A DNA stretch of 64,000 nucleotides from positions 248,001-312,000 of the forward strand of contig CAIVQH010000060.1 of assembly GCA_903907995.1 (NCBI GenBank), written 5' to 3'. This stretch comes from an uncultured Verrucomicrobiota bacterium (lineage in GTDB: Bacteria > Verrucomicrobiota > Verrucomicrobiia > Limisphaerales > UBA9464). The notes beneath the pieces are model-generated. The model saw only the letters and a list, made by a program, of their open reading frames with translations, was not told the origin of the DNA and ran no database searches. This document shows, piece after piece, positions 22,037 to 32,380 of this stretch (its first letter is position 1; each line of letters begins with the position of its first letter). A program made the translations under genes and the position numbers.

Positions 22037-25000
22037 ATGAAAATTCACTCGTTCAACCCATGGGCCAGTACCGTGGCGGCGCTTTGCGTCACCGGGCTGA
22101 CGGCCTACGCCGGTTCGGTGTCGTACAACTTCGACACGGATCCGACCGGAATCCTGCAGCTCTACGGCAATGCTACCTACAATGCCACCGGCGGGAACCC
22201 GGCCACCGGCGGCTATCTGTCGCTAACGGAAGCTGTCAACAGCCAGCGGAGCGCCATTGTCTTCGCCGACATCGATAACGGATCGGTCGTCAAGGCGTTC
22301 AGTTTTTCCATGGATGTTCGCATCGGTGGTGGCAGCACCACTCCGGCGGACGGTTTCAGCGTCAATTATGTTCGGGCCAGCGATCCGGTGATCACGACTG
22401 GCGACCCGCTCAACAATTGGGCCACCGGTCCGAACGGTGAGGCCAATCTGCCCGAGGAAGGCGCCACAACCGGTCTTGGCATCGGCTTCGACGCCTATAA
22501 CAGCGGTGGCGGGGACGTCATTGGCATCAGTGTCCGCGTGGATGGCACTTTGATCGCCCAATATCCCCTGCCCACGATCAACGGTGCAGCCAATGACCCC
22601 ACCTCGCTGCAGACCGGACCGCTCGACACGGCTAATCCGGGTTCGGCCGACCTGCTCTCCTGGGAGCCATTCAGCGTCAATCTGGCCGAGACCGGCGTAC
22701 TGGTGGTGAAGTACAAGGGCGTGGAAATCACTCCGGCCGGCGGCTTGCAGACCACCTTTGCCCCCAGTCCCGGGCAGCTGGTGCTCGTCGCCCGGACTGG
22801 CGGCCTCAACCAGAATCAGCACGTTGACAATATCTCGATCACGACGATCCCTGCAGCGCTCGCCCTCGTGGGCAATGCCACGGGCCTGCCCGATGGCTTC
22901 AGCGTCACTCTGAATGATTCCGGTGCGAGCGTCGTGGACACGACGCAGGTTACGGCCAAGCTGAATGGCAACCCGGTGACCGTTACCTCCGTCACCAAAA
23001 ACGGCGGAGCGACCACGGTGGCCTATCGTGGTTATTCTGCCCTGCTGACTCCGGGTTCCACCAACACCGTGGACCTCACGGCGAAGGACACCAACGGCAA
23101 CACCATCACCGGCTCCCGCACGTTTACCGCTCCCAGTTACGCCACGGTCCCCCCGAGCCAAGCCGTTCCGGCCGGATCGGTGGACACCGCCAAGGCCGGC
23201 TTCAGGCTGATGCCCTGGCAGTCCGGCACCCAGCCGAACGCCATTTACTATACTGAGGAACAGCTCGCCGGGCTCCACGGCCCGAACGTGGCCGACCTTA
23301 CAACGGCTACCGATGGCGGCTATGTCGACGTTACGGGTACGATCAACTTCAACGGTGACGGCTCGAATGCCGGCGACTTCACGGGCGACACGACGTTCCC
23401 CGGCATTCCTGGCCCCGATGGTCACACCGGCAACTCCAGCTTCGAGGCCCTTACCTATCTGAACTTCCCCACTGCGGGCGTGTACCAGATGGGAGTGAAC
23501 AGCGATGACGGCTTCAAAGTAACCTCCGGCCTGATCGCGCAGGACCGCTTCAGTCCGGCACTCGGCATCTACAACGGTGGCAAAGGCTCCTCCGACGTCC
23601 TGTTCTACATCGTTGTGCCGACGGCCGGTTACTATCCGTTCCGCCTGATCTGGGAAAACGGCAACGGTGATGCCGGCAACGGGCTCAACTGCGAGTGGTT
23701 CATTGTCAATGCCGATGGCACCAAGAGCCTCATCAATGACGCCTCCGACGCAAAGTCCATCAAGGCCTACTACTCGGGCCCGACCTTTGCTTCGCACGTT
23801 TCTCAAGTTGTGCCCTACCCCGGCCAGACCGGTGCCCGGCCTGACTTCGTGACCTTGCAGCTCACCGATGGCGCCAGTGCGGTCAATGCCGGTTCGATCC
23901 AGCTCAGCCTGAACGGGGCGGCCACCACGGTTGCGCCGACCAAGTCCGGTGCCGTCACCACGGTGCAGGCGAAACTGACGGGCGCGAACCTTCTGCCTCC
24001 CGGTTCCACCAATTCCGCGCTCCTCGTATGGGCTGACTCCGCCACTCCTGCGGTGGTCCATTCCAACGCCTGGACCTTCGTGACGATGAATTACGTCACC
24101 CTCAATGCCGGCCTCGCGAGCCCCGCCGGTTCCGGTGATCCTGCCCAGCGCGGCTTCTCCCTCAAGGTGAACCAGCTCGATCCCAGCACCGTTGGCGACA
24201 CCGGTGACGTGACCGGCAACAACATTGAGAGCGCCGAATCGCAGCTCGCGGGCCTGTACAGCCCCGCCTTCGGCGCCAACGTGGCTGACACCGCCACCGC
24301 GACCAGTGGCAACACCTGGAACCTCAATGATGCGATCGATTACCTGATGAGCGGCACCGCGCCGGCCGGCGACTTCGCTAACGATCTCCCCCTCCCCGGC
24401 ATCCCGGGCACCACGGGCATCACCGACATGATCGCCGCGGAGTTCAAGGGATACGCGGACCTCGCCCCCGGATTCTACGTCATGGGCGTCAACAGTGACG
24501 ACGGCTTCCGCGTGACTGAAGCGACCAGCGTCAGCCGCCAGGTGCTGCACATCGAAGGCGCTGGCATCAGCCAGGACCTCCACGTGGTCAACACCACGAC
24601 CAACAACTCCAGCTACGGCGGCAGCCTCCCCACCACACCGATCACGGCTCCCCTGGTCTATGTCGATACCAACAGCTGCCCCGCCGTGCCTGACCTCACC
24701 GGCAAGATTGCGGTGATCGATCTCCATCGTTGCAGCTCGAGCGACAGCGATGTCGTCCTCGCTGGCAAGATGCAGGATGCCGGCGCGCTCGCCGTGGTCA
24801 TCATCAACGTGCCGAGCTTCGGCCTGTCCTACATCGGCAGTGGCACCCCGACCAAGCCGATCACCATCCCGGTCGTCATGACCAGCGGCTTTGCCGGTGG
24901 CGCAGACGTCCTGAAGACGAATGCAAACCTCACGGCCAGCATCGGTGCCGACAGCAGCCTGAAGCTTGGTGAATTCAACGGCAACGGCCGTGGCACCGCC

Positions 25001-25378
25001 GACACGCTCTTCGGCTTCGTGGTTCCCAGCGCCGGTGTCTATCCCCTGCGCATGGTCTATCAGAACGGCAACGGCGGTGCGGCCGTCGAATGGTTCAGTG
25101 TCACCACGGATGACCTGACGGTGGACGGAGGCACCAAGATCCTCCTCAACGACAGCGCCACCCCGGGCTCGGTTCTCCTCTACCGGGGCACCACTGCGGT
25201 TTCCCTGCCGACGGTCAGCGTCACCAACGGTGGCACTGAGATCGTGCTCACCTATACGGGCACGCTGGAATCCAGCGACACGGTCAACGGCACCTACACC
25301 CCGGTCGCCGGTGCGACCTCCCCGCTGCACGTGCCGTTCAGCACGGGCGCGGCGAAGTTCTACCGCACGCGCAACTGA
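22037..25378 (+). CDS. Large secreted modular protein (lectin-like, PA14-like repeats, PA domain)
   Basis: 1113 residues with a signal peptide (MKIHSFNPWASTVAALCVTGLTAYA). Residues ~26-275 resemble a lectin-type sandwich (VSYNFDTDPTG, ADGFSVNYVRAS). Two Ig-like linkers (~278-385 and ~584-700) alternate with two PA14-like modules, each holding YxMGVNSDDGFxVT and YPxRxxxxNGNG. The second PA14-like module (~705-1051) carries an inserted protease-associated domain (~871-975: APLVYVDTNSCP, GKIAVIDLHRC, AGALAVVIINVP). The last 60 residues (LESSDTVNGTYTPVAG...KFYRTRN) form a module also seen in two other secreted proteins here. The likely role is surface binding of glycans or protein; I see no catalytic motif. 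Confidence 0.85.
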   Translation: MKIHSFNPWASTVAALCVTGLTAYAGSVSYNFDTDPTGILQLYGNATYNATGGNPATGGYLSLTEAVNSQRSAIVFADIDNGSVVKAFSFSMDVRIGGGSTTPADGFSVNYVRASDPVITTGDPLNNWATGPNGEANLPEEGATTGLGIGFDAYNSGGGDVIGISVRVDGTLIAQYPLPTINGAANDPTSLQTGPLDTANPGSADLLSWEPFSVNLAETGVLVVKYKGVEITPAGGLQTTFAPSPGQLVLVARTGGLNQNQHVDNISITTIPAALALVGNATGLPDGFSVTLNDSGASVVDTTQVTAKLNGNPVTVTSVTKNGGATTVAYRGYSALLTPGSTNTVDLTAKDTNGNTITGSRTFTAPSYATVPPSQAVPAGSVDTAKAGFRLMPWQSGTQPNAIYYTEEQLAGLHGPNVADLTTATDGGYVDVTGTINFNGDGSNAGDFTGDTTFPGIPGPDGHTGNSSFEALTYLNFPTAGVYQMGVNSDDGFKVTSGLIAQDRFSPALGIYNGGKGSSDVLFYIVVPTAGYYPFRLIWENGNGDAGNGLNCEWFIVNADGTKSLINDASDAKSIKAYYSGPTFASHVSQVVPYPGQTGARPDFVTLQLTDGASAVNAGSIQLSLNGAATTVAPTKSGAVTTVQAKLTGANLLPPGSTNSALLVWADSATPAVVHSNAWTFVTMNYVTLNAGLASPAGSGDPAQRGFSLKVNQLDPSTVGDTGDVTGNNIESAESQLAGLYSPAFGANVADTATATSGNTWNLNDAIDYLMSGTAPAGDFANDLPLPGIPGTTGITDMIAAEFKGYADLAPGFYVMGVNSDDGFRVTEATSVSRQVLHIEGAGISQDLHVVNTTTNNSSYGGSLPTTPITAPLVYVDTNSCPAVPDLTGKIAVIDLHRCSSSDSDVVLAGKMQDAGALAVVIINVPSFGLSYIGSGTPTKPITIPVVMTSGFAGGADVLKTNANLTASIGADSSLKLGEFNGNGRGTADTLFGFVVPSAGVYPLRMVYQNGNGGAAVEWFSVTTDDLTVDGGTKILLNDSATPGSVLLYRGTTAVSLPTVSVTNGGTEIVLTYTGTLESSDTVNGTYTPVAGATSPLHVPFSTGAAKFYRTRN

Positions 25379-27104: not shown

Positions 27105-28076
27105 TCAGACCTTCGTACGGAAGTAGGCGATGGTGCTCTTCAGGCCTTCGGCGAGGGGCACCTGCGGTTCCCACTTCAGCAGCTTCTTCGCCCGGGTGAT
27201 GTCCGGACGGCGCTGCTTGGGATCATCCTGCGGCAGCGGCTTATGGATCAGCTTCGACTTGGAGCCGGTGGCCTTGATGATCTCCTCCGCGAACTGGAGC
27301 ATCGTGAGCTCGTGCGGATTTCCAATGTTCACCGGGTCGCTCGTTTCGCTCATCATCAGGCGGTAGATGCCCTCGATGAGGTCGGAAAAGTAGCAGAAGC
27401 TGCGCGTCTGTTTGCCGTCGCCGAAGATCGTGATCGGCTTGTTGGCCAGCGCCTGGCTGATGAAAGCCGGGACGACGCGACCGTCATTGATGCGCATCCG
27501 CGGGCCGTAGGTGTTGAAGATCCGGACGATCCGGGTGGGGATGGCGTGCTGGCGGTGGTAGGCCATGACCAGCGCCTCGGCAAACCGCTTGGATTCGTCA
27601 TAGCAGCCGCGCGGGCCGATGGTGTTCACATTGCCCCAGTAGCTCTCCGGCTGCGGATGGATCAGCGGGTCACCGTAGATCTCGGAAGTCGAGGTGATGA
27701 GGAAGCGGGCCCCCTTGGCCTTGGCAAGGCCGAGCGCCTTGTGGGTTCCCAAGGAGCCAACCTTAAGCGTCTGGATGGGCAGTTCAAGATAGTCGATCGG
27801 ACTGGCCGGCGAGGCAAAGTGCCAGACGTAATCCACCGGACCGGCCAGGTAGAGAAACTCGGTGACATCCTGCCGGATGAACTGGAAATCCGGATTGCCG
27901 GCCAGATGGGCGATGTTGTCGGTCGAGCCGGTCACCAGATTGTCGATGGCGATCACCTTGTGGCCGCGACTGAGCAGCAGGTCGGTGAGGTGGGAGCCGA
28001 GAAACCCCGCCCCGCCCGTGACGACGGAGGTGGGCTTCAGGGCGGGCTTTTTGGTTTTCTTGGGAACGGCAGGCAT
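27105..28076 (-). CDS. UDP-glucuronate decarboxylase-like SDR epimerase
   Basis: 323 residues. The extended-SDR start is [23 protein letters not shown] (NAD loop GGxGFxG). Further marks are [23 protein letters not shown], and YDESKR with the Tyr-x3-Lys catalytic pair. [22 protein letters not shown] and [16 protein letters not shown] are typical of UXS, which makes UDP-xylose from UDP-glucuronate. dTDP-glucose dehydratase relatives are the main alternative. It ends the exosortase-EPS gene series on the minus strand, 92 bp after the sugar transferase gene. Confidence 0.88.
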
Positions 28077-28168: not shown

Positions 28169-29566
28169 TCACTTCGCACCGGACCCGGCCAGCACCGCCG
28201 GGATGGTGCGCACGAGAATCTTGAGATCGAGCCAGAGCGACCAGTTGTCGATGTATTCGAGGTCAAGCCGGACCCATTCCTTGAAGTCGGTGACATTGTT
28301 CCGGCCACTGACCTGCCAGAGGCAGGTAAGACCCGGTTTAACGCTCAGGCGGCGGCGATCGGCCGGATCGTCGAAGCGCTTGACCTCATGCACCGGCAGC
28401 GGCCGTGGCCCCACCAGGCTCATTTCTCCCCGGAGCACGTTGATGAGCTGCGGAAACTCATCGATGCTGTATTTCCGCAGGAAACGGCCCACCGGGGTGA
28501 TCCGCGGATCATTCGTGACCTTGAAGACCGGGCCGGACATCTCATTGAGCTGCGTCAGCTCCTGCTGAAGCTGTTCCGCATTGGTCACCATGGTGCGGAA
28601 CTTGAGCATGGTGAACGGCTGTCCGTTCAGGCCGGCGCGCTGTTGGCGGAACAGGATGGAGTCTTTGGAGGTCAGCTTGATCAGCAGGGCCGCCAGCGGC
28701 AGCACCGGAATCACAAAGGTAAACAGAAGCAGCAGCAAGAGCGCGCCGACGAAATCGATCACGTTCTTGGCCAACGCCTGCCAGGAGGCATCGGGGCCCG
28801 TGCGGAAGACGATCACCGGCTGGCCGTTCAGGTCGTCAGCCGAGGCCTGCGAAAGCCGGGTCTGGAAGAAATCGGCCAGCAGCCAGACTTCGACGCCTTC
28901 CAGCTCGCATACCTGGATGGCCTGCTCAATCTGGCCGAAAAGCGCGTGATGCGACGAGATGACCACGGCGTTGGCCGAGGTGTCATGGAGCAGTTCGGCC
29001 AGTTGGTTGGGGGAAGTGGTGTCGAGACTGATGCGGGACACGATTTCCATGCCGCTCTGGCCGCCCGATGACAGCGTCTTTTCAATCCGGGCCGTGTCCT
29101 CGCCGGAATTAGCCGAGGAGGCCAGGAGGATGATCCGCCGGCTGGCGGAGCTGCTGCCCCTGCGGGCGCGTGCCCAGTACCGGATCCCCTCCTCCTTGAG
29201 CACCATCAGAAAAATCGCCACCGGAATGAAGAGCACCAGGACGCCACGGGCTCCTTCCTCCTTGCGGAAGAAGAGCACCGTGATGACGGCCAGGGCGATC
29301 CACGAGGCTGCCTTGGCCAGTTGCCAGACCATCTGCTGGCGGGAGTGAAACAGCGCCCGCTGATAGAATCCCTGCAGCTCTAGCACGGGCGCGGCCAGCG
29401 GCAGGATGACCACAAGCAGCCACGCATAATCCGGGAAGTCACGGATCGTGTCCTTGTAAAGCGGCAGCGAGCGCAGCCAGTGCGCGAGCCAAAAGGCGGC
29501 TCCAAACACGGCTGCGTCGGCAAGCTTTTGCAGCTTCGTCTCTATCTGCCGTTGCCGGCGTAACAT
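28169..29566 (-). CDS. Exopolysaccharide polyprenyl-phosphate sugar-1-phosphate transferase
   Basis: 465 residues. The N-terminal half has four membrane helices (e.g. [31 protein letters not shown]) and a Rossmann-like CoA-binding-type domain ([28 protein letters not shown]). The C-terminal bacterial sugar transferase domain has the membrane helix [57 protein letters not shown] and [14 protein letters not shown]. This is the WcaJ/EpsL type that starts lipid-linked repeat-unit assembly. It stands between epsI and the decarboxylase gene, which fits an EPS locus. Confidence 0.92.
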
Positions 29567-29642: not shown

Positions 29643-30383
29643 TCATTCCGTCTGCCCGGCCTGCGTGACGATGTCGGGAACGCTGGCTGTGATCAATCGC
29701 GTCATCTTTTCAAAAGTCGCATCTTCCTCCCCCGGAGCACAATCGGCAAAATAGGAGACGTACGCCCAGCGTTGCAGCACATTGTGGAGCAACAGGTCGC
29801 GAATGAGCCACCAATTGCGGGTCCAATGGCTCGCCGTGCGTTGTCCGTCGGCCACAAACCAGAAAACATAGACCGCGCCACGGGAAAAGGGTTTGCCGTC
29901 GGGAGTGGTCAGGCTCAGTCGGGCATCGAAGCGACGCACCGCAAGATCGTAGTCCTGCGGTCGCGAAATGTGAATCTGCTCCACGCGCTTTCGCTGAATG
30001 ACCCAGCCCTGGCTGTTCAGGCAGAATTCGGGCTGATGGATGCTGGTTCGGTCAGTGCCCATGAGCACCACGCTGGTTTGGACCGTGAGCGCCCCATCCG
30101 GAGTGGCATAGCTGCGGCGGCCAAAACTGGTGTCCTGCGGCAACACTTCGAGTTCATGCTCCGTGATGCTGGCAAATTTGCTGGTATAGCCGGGAATTCT
30201 TTCAGGCATGTACACCGAGGTCGCTTTGGCCAGGCGGTTCGACTCGGTGATCAGGGGCACGCCGACCAGACGTACCGCTGGCTTCCCCAACCGCTGGTTG
30301 GTCCGCAGATATATCAGCGCCAGATGCCCGGCTGCCATGAGGGCAACCGCCGAAATGCACAGGACGAGCAGCCTGCGATTCAT
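29643..30383 (-). CDS. epsI: EpsI family protein (exosortase-associated)
   Basis: 246 residues from MNRRLLVLCISAVALMAAGHLALIYL, an N-terminal membrane helix. The ATG overlaps the exosortase stop by 4 bp. YMPERIPGYTSKF and IHQPEFCLNSQGWVIQRKR match the EpsI signature (HxPExCLxxxGW). RGAVYVFWFVADGQRTASHW and FEKMTRLITASVPDI complete it. EpsI is fused to, or next to, exosortases and is required for EPS export in Methylobacillus; its own biochemical role is unknown. The translational overlap implies a fixed ratio with the exosortase. Confidence 0.9.
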   Translation of the reverse strand: MNRRLLVLCISAVALMAAGHLALIYLRTNQRLGKPAVRLVGVPLITESNRLAKATSVYMPERIPGYTSKFASITEHELEVLPQDTSFGRRSYATPDGALTVQTSVVLMGTDRTSIHQPEFCLNSQGWVIQRKRVEQIHISRPQDYDLAVRRFDARLSLTTPDGKPFSRGAVYVFWFVADGQRTASHWTRNWWLIRDLLLHNVLQRWAYVSYFADCAPGEEDATFEKMTRLITASVPDIVTQAGQTE

Positions 30384-31342
30384 GATGCGACCGCCTCCGG
30401 ATCGGCTGTCGTGGAAGGCAGATTGGCTTCCGGCTTCCGGCCCCGGTCTTCCCGCAGCAGCCATCCCAAGCAATACACGCCCGCCAAAGCGCCGAGATAG
30501 GTGATGAAGCCGAACTTCGTCTCGATCATTTTGCCGGCGTCCTCGCCAAACGAATCACTCACGATGAAAACCACCACCAGCCGGATCACGTTTCCGAAAA
30601 CCGCCAGCGGCACCGCCATCAGCACAATCAGGACGCACCGCCAGAGTGTCCGGAAGTTGAGATAGGCATACACAAGAGTGATCAGCAGGACGACGGTGGC
30701 ACTGCGGATGCCGCTGCAGGCCGGGGCCACGTCAAACTGAAAGGTTCCCGCCGAAGAGGTGTGCATCACCATCGTGCCCAGGCGGATGAGCTTCATCTGC
30801 AGCAGGCCGTTGCAAAGGCCCACGGACAGCTGGGTGGAAAGAACCCGGAGGTAATAAGTCAGCGAGTCGGTGTAGACGCCGATGGGGATGCCGAAAAGCA
30901 GGAGAAACCAGGGAAAAAGGATGCTTTTGAGCCAGGCGGCACCCCAGAACATCCCCATCAGGCCAAATCCTCCCACCAAAAAGCCCACCGCTGAAAGCCG
31001 CACCTGTTGCACCAGATAGCCCAGGATATGGAGCAGAACACCGGCCGCAACCAGCGCCAGCGCCGGTCCCCATATCCCCTTGGACACCCGGGTCAGCTCC
31101 TCACGCTTCTGGTAAAGCATGATCAGCATGATGAACGGCACCAAGGGGCAGAGCTCGTCGCCAGATTCTCCGAAGGAGGAAAAGTGGTACCAGCCGTACA
31201 GCCAGCCGAACATGGAGGTGCTGCTGCCATCGCCGAGGCTGGAATTGCCGATGATGTGGAACAGGGCAGCCCACAAGGCAAACATGACGGCAAACGCACC
31301 CTTGTTGGGCAGGCTGTTCCAGAATTGTCGCAGATCGTTCAC
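30380..31342 (-). CDS. Exosortase/archaeosortase family transpeptidase
   Basis: 320 residues with about eight membrane helices. The active-site region is DVAPACSGIRSATVVLL (Cys209), and AVPLAVFGNVIRLVVVFIVSD carries Arg254, two of the three conserved residues. The third, a histidine expected in the following loop, is not seen: the loop reads FGEDAGKMIETKFGF. Exosortases cleave and probably transfer PEP-CTERM proteins to the cell surface, linked to EPS synthesis. It is the first gene of the series exosortase-epsI-sugar transferase-decarboxylase. No PEP-CTERM substrate was found in this window. Confidence 0.9.
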   Translation of the reverse strand: MNDLRQFWNSLPNKGAFAVMFALWAALFHIIGNSSLGDGSSTSMFGWLYGWYHFSSFGESGDELCPLVPFIMLIMLYQKREELTRVSKGIWGPALALVAAGVLLHILGYLVQQVRLSAVGFLVGGFGLMGMFWGAAWLKSILFPWFLLLFGIPIGVYTDSLTYYLRVLSTQLSVGLCNGLLQMKLIRLGTMVMHTSSAGTFQFDVAPACSGIRSATVVLLITLVYAYLNFRTLWRCVLIVLMAVPLAVFGNVIRLVVVFIVSDSFGEDAGKMIETKFGFITYLGALAGVYCLGWLLREDRGRKPEANLPSTTADPEAVAS

Positions 31343-31462: not shown

Positions 31463-32380
31463 TCAAATCTGGAAATCTACGACCGTGCTGCGGTCGGTTT
31501 TGCTCAAAACTTTCACCCCGACATCTTCCATCAGCACCAGGCTGTTGGGCGGCACGCTCTGCATGAGGAACACGTTGGCCCCCACCGTGCTGCCCGTGCC
31601 GATGACCGTGTCGCCGCCAACGATGGTGGCATTGGCGTAAATGGTGACACCATCCTGCAGCGTCGGATGGCGCTTTTGACCGCGCAACGCCTGCCCCGCC
31701 GCCAACGATCGGGCTACCAGACCGACTCCTTGGTAGAGTTTCACATGACTGCCCAGGATGGCCGTTTCGCCGATCACGGTGCCAGTGCAGTGATCGACGA
31801 AGAAATGGGTGCCGATCTGGGCACCCGGATGGATATCCATACCCGTGCGGCTGTGCGCCCATTCCGCCATGATGCGCGGCAGCAGGGGCACGCCCCGCAG
31901 ATGCAGTTCGTGCGCCAGCCGGTGCACCGCGATGGCCTCGATGAAAGGATAGGCCACGATCACCTCTTCACGGGAACGCGCCGCGGGATCACCCAGAAAC
32001 GCCGCCTCGACGTCGGTATGGAGCAGCTCCCGCACGGACGGCAACCGTTGCAGGAACTCGCCCGCGTGCGCATGGGCGGCCGGTCGCGGGTCGCGCTTGT
32101 CATCCTCAGAGCAGTCGGAGCAGCGCAGGCTCTTGTAGATTTCGTCCTCCAGGCGGCCCACCAAGGTGTCGAGCAGGAGCGCGGTTTCCGCCTGAAGTTC
32201 GGAGGAATGGACGATGTTATCGTCGAAAAATCCCGGGAAAATCAGCCGCAGCAGGTCCCGCGTGATCTCCACCACCGCGACCTTCGACGGCAGGTTGACC
32301 CCGTCGAGATGGTTGATCCCGCCGTAACGGCGATAGGACGCGAGCAGCGCCTGCGTCGTGTCGGTGACGGAAAAATTCAC
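31463..32380 (-). CDS. cysE: Serine O-acetyltransferase
   Basis: 305 residues. An N-terminal helical domain (to ~170, ending YPFIEAIAVHRLAHELHLRGV) is followed by the left-handed hexapeptide helix: HSRTGMDIHPGAQIGTHFFVDHCTGTVIGETAILGSHVKLYQGVGL and later GVTIYANATIVGGDTVIGTGSTVGANVFL. DHCTGTVIGETA holds the conserved active-site Asp-His. This is the EpsC/plant-like type of CysE, longer than the E. coli form. It acetylates serine for cysteine synthesis. It stands between the exosortase and TonB operons with about 120-136 bp on each side, so it is probably its own unit. Confidence 0.92.
   Translation of the reverse strand: MNFSVTDTTQALLASYRRYGGINHLDGVNLPSKVAVVEITRDLLRLIFPGFFDDNIVHSSELQAETALLLDTLVGRLEDEIYKSLRCSDCSEDDKRDPRPAAHAHAGEFLQRLPSVRELLHTDVEAAFLGDPAARSREEVIVAYPFIEAIAVHRLAHELHLRGVPLLPRIMAEWAHSRTGMDIHPGAQIGTHFFVDHCTGTVIGETAILGSHVKLYQGVGLVARSLAAGQALRGQKRHPTLQDGVTIYANATIVGGDTVIGTGSTVGANVFLMQSVPPNSLVLMEDVGVKVLSKTDRSTVVDFQI

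Follow-up and report, generated by a model that had tools for sequence, protein, structure and literature searches.

A clade of Verrucomicrobiota exosortases with glutamate in the third conserved position, a probable active variant

An exosortase gene lies within the window, by which we mean the whole 64,000-nucleotide stretch of DNA analysed here, from an uncultured member of the Verrucomicrobiota order Limisphaerales, and its product has a glutamate, Glu274, where exosortases usually have the third of their conserved residues, a histidine. Exosortases are membrane enzymes presumed to cleave surface proteins and attach them to the cell. On balance we favour, by a little, the reading that this is a functional enzyme from a clade in which Glu occupies the third position of the exosortase active site. 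The Glu-type is a real, clade-wide and probably active variant of exosortase. The features on which this rests are collected in Table 1.

Table 1. Features of the exosortase locus, in window coordinates.
Feature	Position	Strand	Remarks
Probable UDP-glucuronate decarboxylase / NAD-dependent epimerase	27105..28076	-	by eye from the open reading frame
Exopolysaccharide polyprenyl glycosylphosphotransferase	28169..29566	-	TIGR03025 388 bits, over cut-off
EpsI partner (DUF3485)	29643..30383	-	PF11984 52.4 bits; TIGR02914 24.7 bits, under cut-off
Exosortase (EpsH family), Glu-type, 320 aa	30380..31342	-	profile matches; GTG start
E-x-x-x-G, Glu274-Gly278 (ETKFG)	30509..30523	-	in register with H-x-x-x-G; Glu274 codon GAG, 30521-30523
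Arg254, motif N-x-x-R (NVIR)	30581..30583	-	codon CGG
Cys209, motif C-x-G (ACSG), presumed nucleophile	30716..30718	-	codon TGC
His105	31028..31030	-	only other His conserved throughout the order's group, in both types
Probable serine acetyltransferase, upstream neighbour	31463..32380	-	by eye from the open reading frame

By profile, the product is a member of the exosortase/archaeosortase superfamily, matching PF09721 at 114.2 bits (cut-off 25.7) and TIGR04178 at 62 bits (cut-off 23). Its TIGR02602 score of 95 bits is under the cut-off of 105.55. The initial annotation had proposed an alignment with the families from XrtA to XrtX; the scores against XrtA, XrtB, XrtC, XrtD, XrtV and XrtW all fell under the cut-off of the type (the best were XrtA, 93.6 versus 208 needed, and XrtD, 91.5 versus 400 needed). 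Haft 2006 (PMC1569441) describes three EpsH-family motifs as having perfectly conserved residues, C-x-G, N-x-x-R and H-x-x-x-G, and the Cys-Arg-His triad of exosortases is a proposal based on that invariance. Cys209 and Arg254 are present, as had been claimed, and the loop FGEDAGKMIETKFGF (residues 265-279) indeed contains no His. Judged by its motifs, the window exosortase lacks the H-x-x-x-G of the original EpsH definition, and it reaches none of the Xrt cut-offs named above. A phmmer search with the single sequence found no related PDB chain at E<=1, and an AlphaFold2 model built from the window protein and L041, which is 93% identical, had a pLDDT of 43.9 and a pTM of 0.28, values too low for its geometry to be read.

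Homologues were drawn from 58 genomes of relatives (53 matched), 145 of the order (130 matched) and 288 of the phylum (127 matched, a figure that includes the window's own genome). In the resulting 206-row alignment, which consists of 205 rows from loci plus the window and so holds the window twice (also as L001), Glu274 falls exactly on the His column, and the Gly four positions later is retained. The third residue is Glu in 77 rows (76 without the duplicate), His in 126 and unreadable in three, with no other residue seen, while Cys and Arg are retained in every row readable at both. When counted per genome, the order has Glu in 72 and His in 83 of the 155 genomes in which an orthologue was read; none of the 155 has both types together and none has a third kind of residue. 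The 155 comprise 152 genomes with group rows scoring >250 (82 His, 70 Glu), together with G026 (Glu), G001 (Glu) and G166 (His). Glu was found in all 31 genomes read from the window's own family, for which 35 were searched and four (G011, G012, G023 and G029) yielded no orthologue. It is therefore neither a chance event nor a sequencing error, since the same Glu is also present at L041, a 93%-identical locus from another assembly. Relatives thus keep the substitution, and the suggestion of the initial annotation that this could be a specialised member is borne out in that Glu is a clade-wide state in the order; a subfamily with Glu at this position, which had been named as something that would undo the anomaly, exists as a sequence fact. 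Our search for a literature report of Glu at the third exosortase position, which covered the titles and abstract openings of open-licence papers, found none.

TIGR04178 detects four exosortases in the window genome, and at this site the three besides the one described here read VHD, WHD and WHD. Since all three have His, Glu characterises the orthologous group, not the organism as a whole. Nostoc punctiforme, by contrast, is described as having one putative exosortase, CrtB (PMC12188702). Within the order, the 57 Glu-type representatives show no variation at Cys209, Gly211, Asn251 or Arg254; Cys209 and Arg254 are each likewise present in 75/75 His-type representatives, and Asn251 is retained in both types. 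We also observed tandem exosortase pairs, both members Glu-type and 0.8 to 1.4 kb apart, at L043, L044, L046 and L052 (in G004, G002, G005 and G007, respectively). These four genomes share one genus; G003 and the window genome have a single copy. A scan of contigs with the sequence of the exosortase alone returned a single match, L041, and when viral contigs were scanned with a profile of 37 rows, no relative was confirmed. Distant matches were seen in eight plasmid records, to XrtD-, XrtV- or unnamed exosortases from Proteobacteria and Desulfovibrio-like hosts.

Outside the order but within the phylum, the third residue is His in 69 of the 70 sequences read, which are 69 matches from the phylum set plus G462; that set held 134 non-order matches, of which the remaining 65 were weaker or redundant. 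A first outside set gave His in 28/29 (including L161, later dropped as short) and a second in 40/40. The sole outside Glu is L159, from G233, which reads VYEQFSGY where G462, of the same family, has His and reads LYHDYSGY. By sequence, G233 represents a separate change from His-Asp to Glu-Gln in another branch, seen in one genome.

The residue following the third position differs sharply between the types. Among 152 representatives (132 from the order and 20 from outside, a set distinct from the 152 genomes counted above), an acidic residue comes next in 84/94 His-type and 0/58 Glu-type sequences; for the order alone the counts are 67/75 (Glu 36, Asp 31) and 0/57. After Glu, the order's Glu-type sequences have Gln (25), Thr (24), Asn (7) or Ser (1), and the second residue after Glu is Lys or Arg in 50/57. 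Positions 275, 276, 278, 281, 284, 258 and 261 also vary with type. Both codons are used for either residue in the 152 representatives (GAG 34 and GAA 24 for Glu; CAT 51 and CAC 43 for His). A swap from His to Glu needs at least two base changes, the shortest route passing through Gln or Asp, and no Gln or Asp intermediate was seen at the third position in the 199 readable rows, where His and Glu are the sole states. This pattern is what one would expect of a constrained alternative state and not of decay. In an independent-pairs sign test, the joint change of the third and next residues was not significant, as the events are few.

The history of the swap was followed on trees built with the motif columns removed. 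Before any tree was built, L001 (the window again) and four short sequences (L248, L161, L072 and L076) were dropped. L022 and L221, in which the residue is unreadable, were excluded from the quick and careful trees; for the quick tree, 14 distant exosortases were removed first, followed by rows >80% identical to a kept row, and for the careful tree the limit was >55%. State switches numbered seven on the FastTree tree (201 rows, 199 with a state), five on the quick tree (152 rows) and four on the careful tree (58 rows). A single Glu clade within the order was not rejected (AU p=0.176). Therefore, few events underlie the coupled change at the next residue, and we would count no more than two origins of Glu from His, the second in G233 alone. 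His is likely the older state, because nearly all outgroup rows carry it. Two His-type sequences, L048 (family f5) and L126 (f32), sit beside the Glu-type L032 with moderate support (94/80 and 90/56) and again have an acidic residue after His; they are possible reversals to His.

Four families are mixed for His and Glu (f8, f38, f45 and f46). In the careful tree, with its thinned set of rows, Glu-type sequences from f8, f38 and f45 cluster together (100/99), a grouping suggestive of gene transfer from one family to another. Taken with the mixed families, the lack of any genome with both types suggests that one type replaced the other in the same slot. The surroundings of that slot are alike for both types. 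In the window, EpsI lies directly downstream, its start overlapping the exosortase stop by ATGA, and it is intact, as had been claimed, with the conserved His and Cys of IHQPEFC. Across the order, EpsI is found <=600 nt downstream or fused at 55/56 Glu-type and 73/75 His-type loci; the two His-type exceptions are loci that end too early, and L115 is the Glu-type exception. The His and Cys of IHQPEFC are invariant beside both types (56 Glu-type and 73 His-type rows).

Whether the Glu-type is active was approached through the co-occurrence of exosortases (TIGR04178, E<=0.001) and PEP-CTERM proteins (TIGR02595, E<=0.01) in the order's 145 genomes. A sole exosortase was defined by TIGR04178, in assemblies 85-96% complete, and PEP-CTERM counts were taken from at most 54 candidates per genome, so that large counts are lower bounds. 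G166 (His-type, at least 21 matches) was counted in, and G129, whose one exosortase is of a different type and which has 12 matches, was left out. PEP-CTERM matches occur in 10 of 13 genomes with only a Glu-type (counts 0, 0, 0, 1, 1, 1, 2, 2, 2, 2, 3, 3 and 12), in 21 of 24 with only a His-type, and in two of 12 without an exosortase. The difference between Glu-only and exosortase-free genomes has a Fisher exact p of 0.0048, with genomes that are not independent: family f26 supplies six of the 13 Glu-only genomes, and all ten exosortase-free genomes without matches come from f7 and f24. At the level of families the contrast was not significant (Glu-only 5/6 versus exosortase-free 2/4, p=0.5), and the case for activity therefore rests on single genomes, G105 and G093. 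Between Glu-only and His-only genomes there is no significant difference in the presence of matches (Fisher exact p=0.64) or in their number (medians of 2 and 2.5, respectively; p=0.19 by Mann-Whitney test).

G105, which is Glu-only, has 12 PEP-CTERM matches at E<=0.01 and 13 at E<=0.05; eight of the 13 tails were read, and every one has PEP, a hydrophobic stretch and a basic end. G093 is a single contig with one detected exosortase, a Glu-type, and two PEP-CTERM tails. The Glu-only genomes without a match at E<=0.01 are G036, G059 and G163, of which G036 has two at E<=0.05. Two genomes that are exosortase-free by TIGR04178 nevertheless have PEP-CTERM proteins, G072 (10 matches) and G164 (at least 24); an exosortase was possibly missed in both, since they are drafts 90 and 89% complete. 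PEP-CTERM proteins, whose presence in the window genome the initial annotation had marked for checking, are indeed found there, with eight matches at E<=0.001, all of whose tails have PEP, a hydrophobic stretch and a basic end, and 19 at E<=0.01. As that genome has three more exosortases, all with His, these proteins need not depend on the Glu-type. Within the window, an exported-looking protein of 1113 residues (22037-25378) has a PA domain over cut-off and matches GLEYA and PA14 below threshold, and its C-terminus (FYRTRN) is unlike a PEP-CTERM tail. L266 in G093 and L265 in G079, both Glu-only genomes, each involve a large PEP-CTERM protein, and the sequences before the tail are similar by eye (AVVLET...). 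The protein common to G093 and G079 could be a dedicated substrate.

These data bear on several ways in which the missing His might be explained away. The initial annotation had raised the prospect of an inactive member, which is unlikely given the invariant Cys, Arg, Asn and Gly, the retention of Glu through synonymous change, and the PEP-CTERM proteins of several Glu-only genomes. A pseudo-enzyme retained for binding or regulation would fit the broken published triad and the three His-type exosortases also present in the window genome, but we regard it as very unlikely: Gly211 and Asn251 are kept along with Cys209 and Arg254, PEP-CTERM proteins persist in G105 and G093 where the Glu-type is the only detected exosortase, and the Glu-type occupies the same slot beside EpsI, one type per genome. 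That the Glu-type acts on a different, dedicated C-terminal signal, poorly detected by the PEP-CTERM model, would account for the few matches in the f26 Glu-only genomes (0, 0, 1, 1, 1 and 2), and yet appears improbable when G105 has so many and when Glu-only genomes do not differ significantly from His-only ones in their counts. It had also been proposed that the His is supplied from elsewhere. For both the exosortase and EpsI, candidates were sought by column counts and by mutual information with the type (Glu or His). His105 is present in 57/57 Glu-type sequences, as is the EpsI His in 56/56, but both are as conserved beside the His-type (74/75 and 73/73), so neither is a compensating change; some distant homologues have Tyr, Phe or another residue in place of His105. 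The window protein also has His194, but this residue is found in 9/57 Glu-type and 0/75 His-type sequences and is thus missing from 48 of the 57, and His at columns 164 and 229 is found in five of 57 Glu-type rows each and in no His-type row. No EpsI residue tracks the type, the best mutual information being 0.28 bit versus 0.99 bit for residue 274. Takeover of the role by His105, His194 or the EpsI His is accordingly quite improbable. His105, with Gln112 and Gln113, belongs to a second near-invariant patch, HxxGYxxQQ (window 31004-31030).

The main rival to reading Glu274 as a base is that the third residue, be it His, Glu or the Arg of archaeosortase A, never acts as one, Cys and Arg doing the chemistry. 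The third residue would then serve to orient the substrate, the Arg or the ends of the helices, and the swap would alter specificity or stability and not mechanism. We consider this possible, if doubtful. Haloferax volcanii ArtA belongs to the same superfamily (TIGR04178 also matches in H. volcanii), and is reported to need Cys173, Arg214 and Arg253 (PMC9263693), no His being mentioned. It is thus like what is proposed for the window protein in needing Cys and Arg and in having a third needed residue other than His, and differs in that this residue is Arg253 and not Glu; if Arg253 holds the corresponding place, the third position would accept charged residues of more than one kind. The surroundings of the motif vary by type, as would be expected if local packing had been rebuilt. 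On the other hand, a column restricted to His and Glu throughout the readable rows is tighter than structural roles usually are. We infer instead that Glu274 is the catalytic base, replacing the proton-transfer function of His.

If Glu274 is indeed the base, the PEP-CTERM tail would reach the enzyme on the outer side of the inner membrane, where Cys209 would attack the peptide bond near PEP, with Arg254 steadying the thiolate or oxyanion. Glu274 would carry out the proton transfer that is the job of the His-Asp/Glu pair in ordinary exosortases, and the acyl-enzyme would be handed to an acceptor, probably linked to an envelope polysaccharide made by the neighbouring genes. The nitrilase superfamily uses a Cys-Glu-Lys triad in which Glu serves as base for the Cys nucleophile. 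That chemistry is like the one proposed here, but the nitrilase fold is unrelated and soluble, and the likeness is one of analogy only.

With the known EpsH/exosortase family (PF09721, TIGR02602, TIGR04178), the window protein shares the profile, C-x-G, N-x-x-R, the EpsI neighbour, the adjoining polysaccharide gene and a genome that encodes PEP-CTERM proteins. It differs in having E-x-x-x-G, a non-acidic residue after Glu, and a sub-cut-off TIGR02602 score. The His-type orthologues of the order, such as L048, L051 and L053, which are 41, 40 and 38% identical to the window protein over most of their length, occupy the same slot with the same EpsI partner and differ in keeping His, mostly followed by Asp or Glu. 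We tentatively suggest that exosortases exist in two interchangeable catalytic versions, Cys-Arg-His(Asp/Glu) and Cys-Arg-Glu(Gln/Thr/Asn), which replace each other at one locus, and that the Glu version, having arisen at least twice, with the second origin known so far from one genome, is active as a transpeptidase whose Cys chemistry is assisted by a carboxylate. If this is true, exosortases can carry out catalysis without His. A large Glu clade removes the argument from invariance for one of the three triad residues, and the accepted picture of the exosortase mechanism may be incomplete. Annotation rules that require the His would wrongly label Glu-type proteins as inactive.
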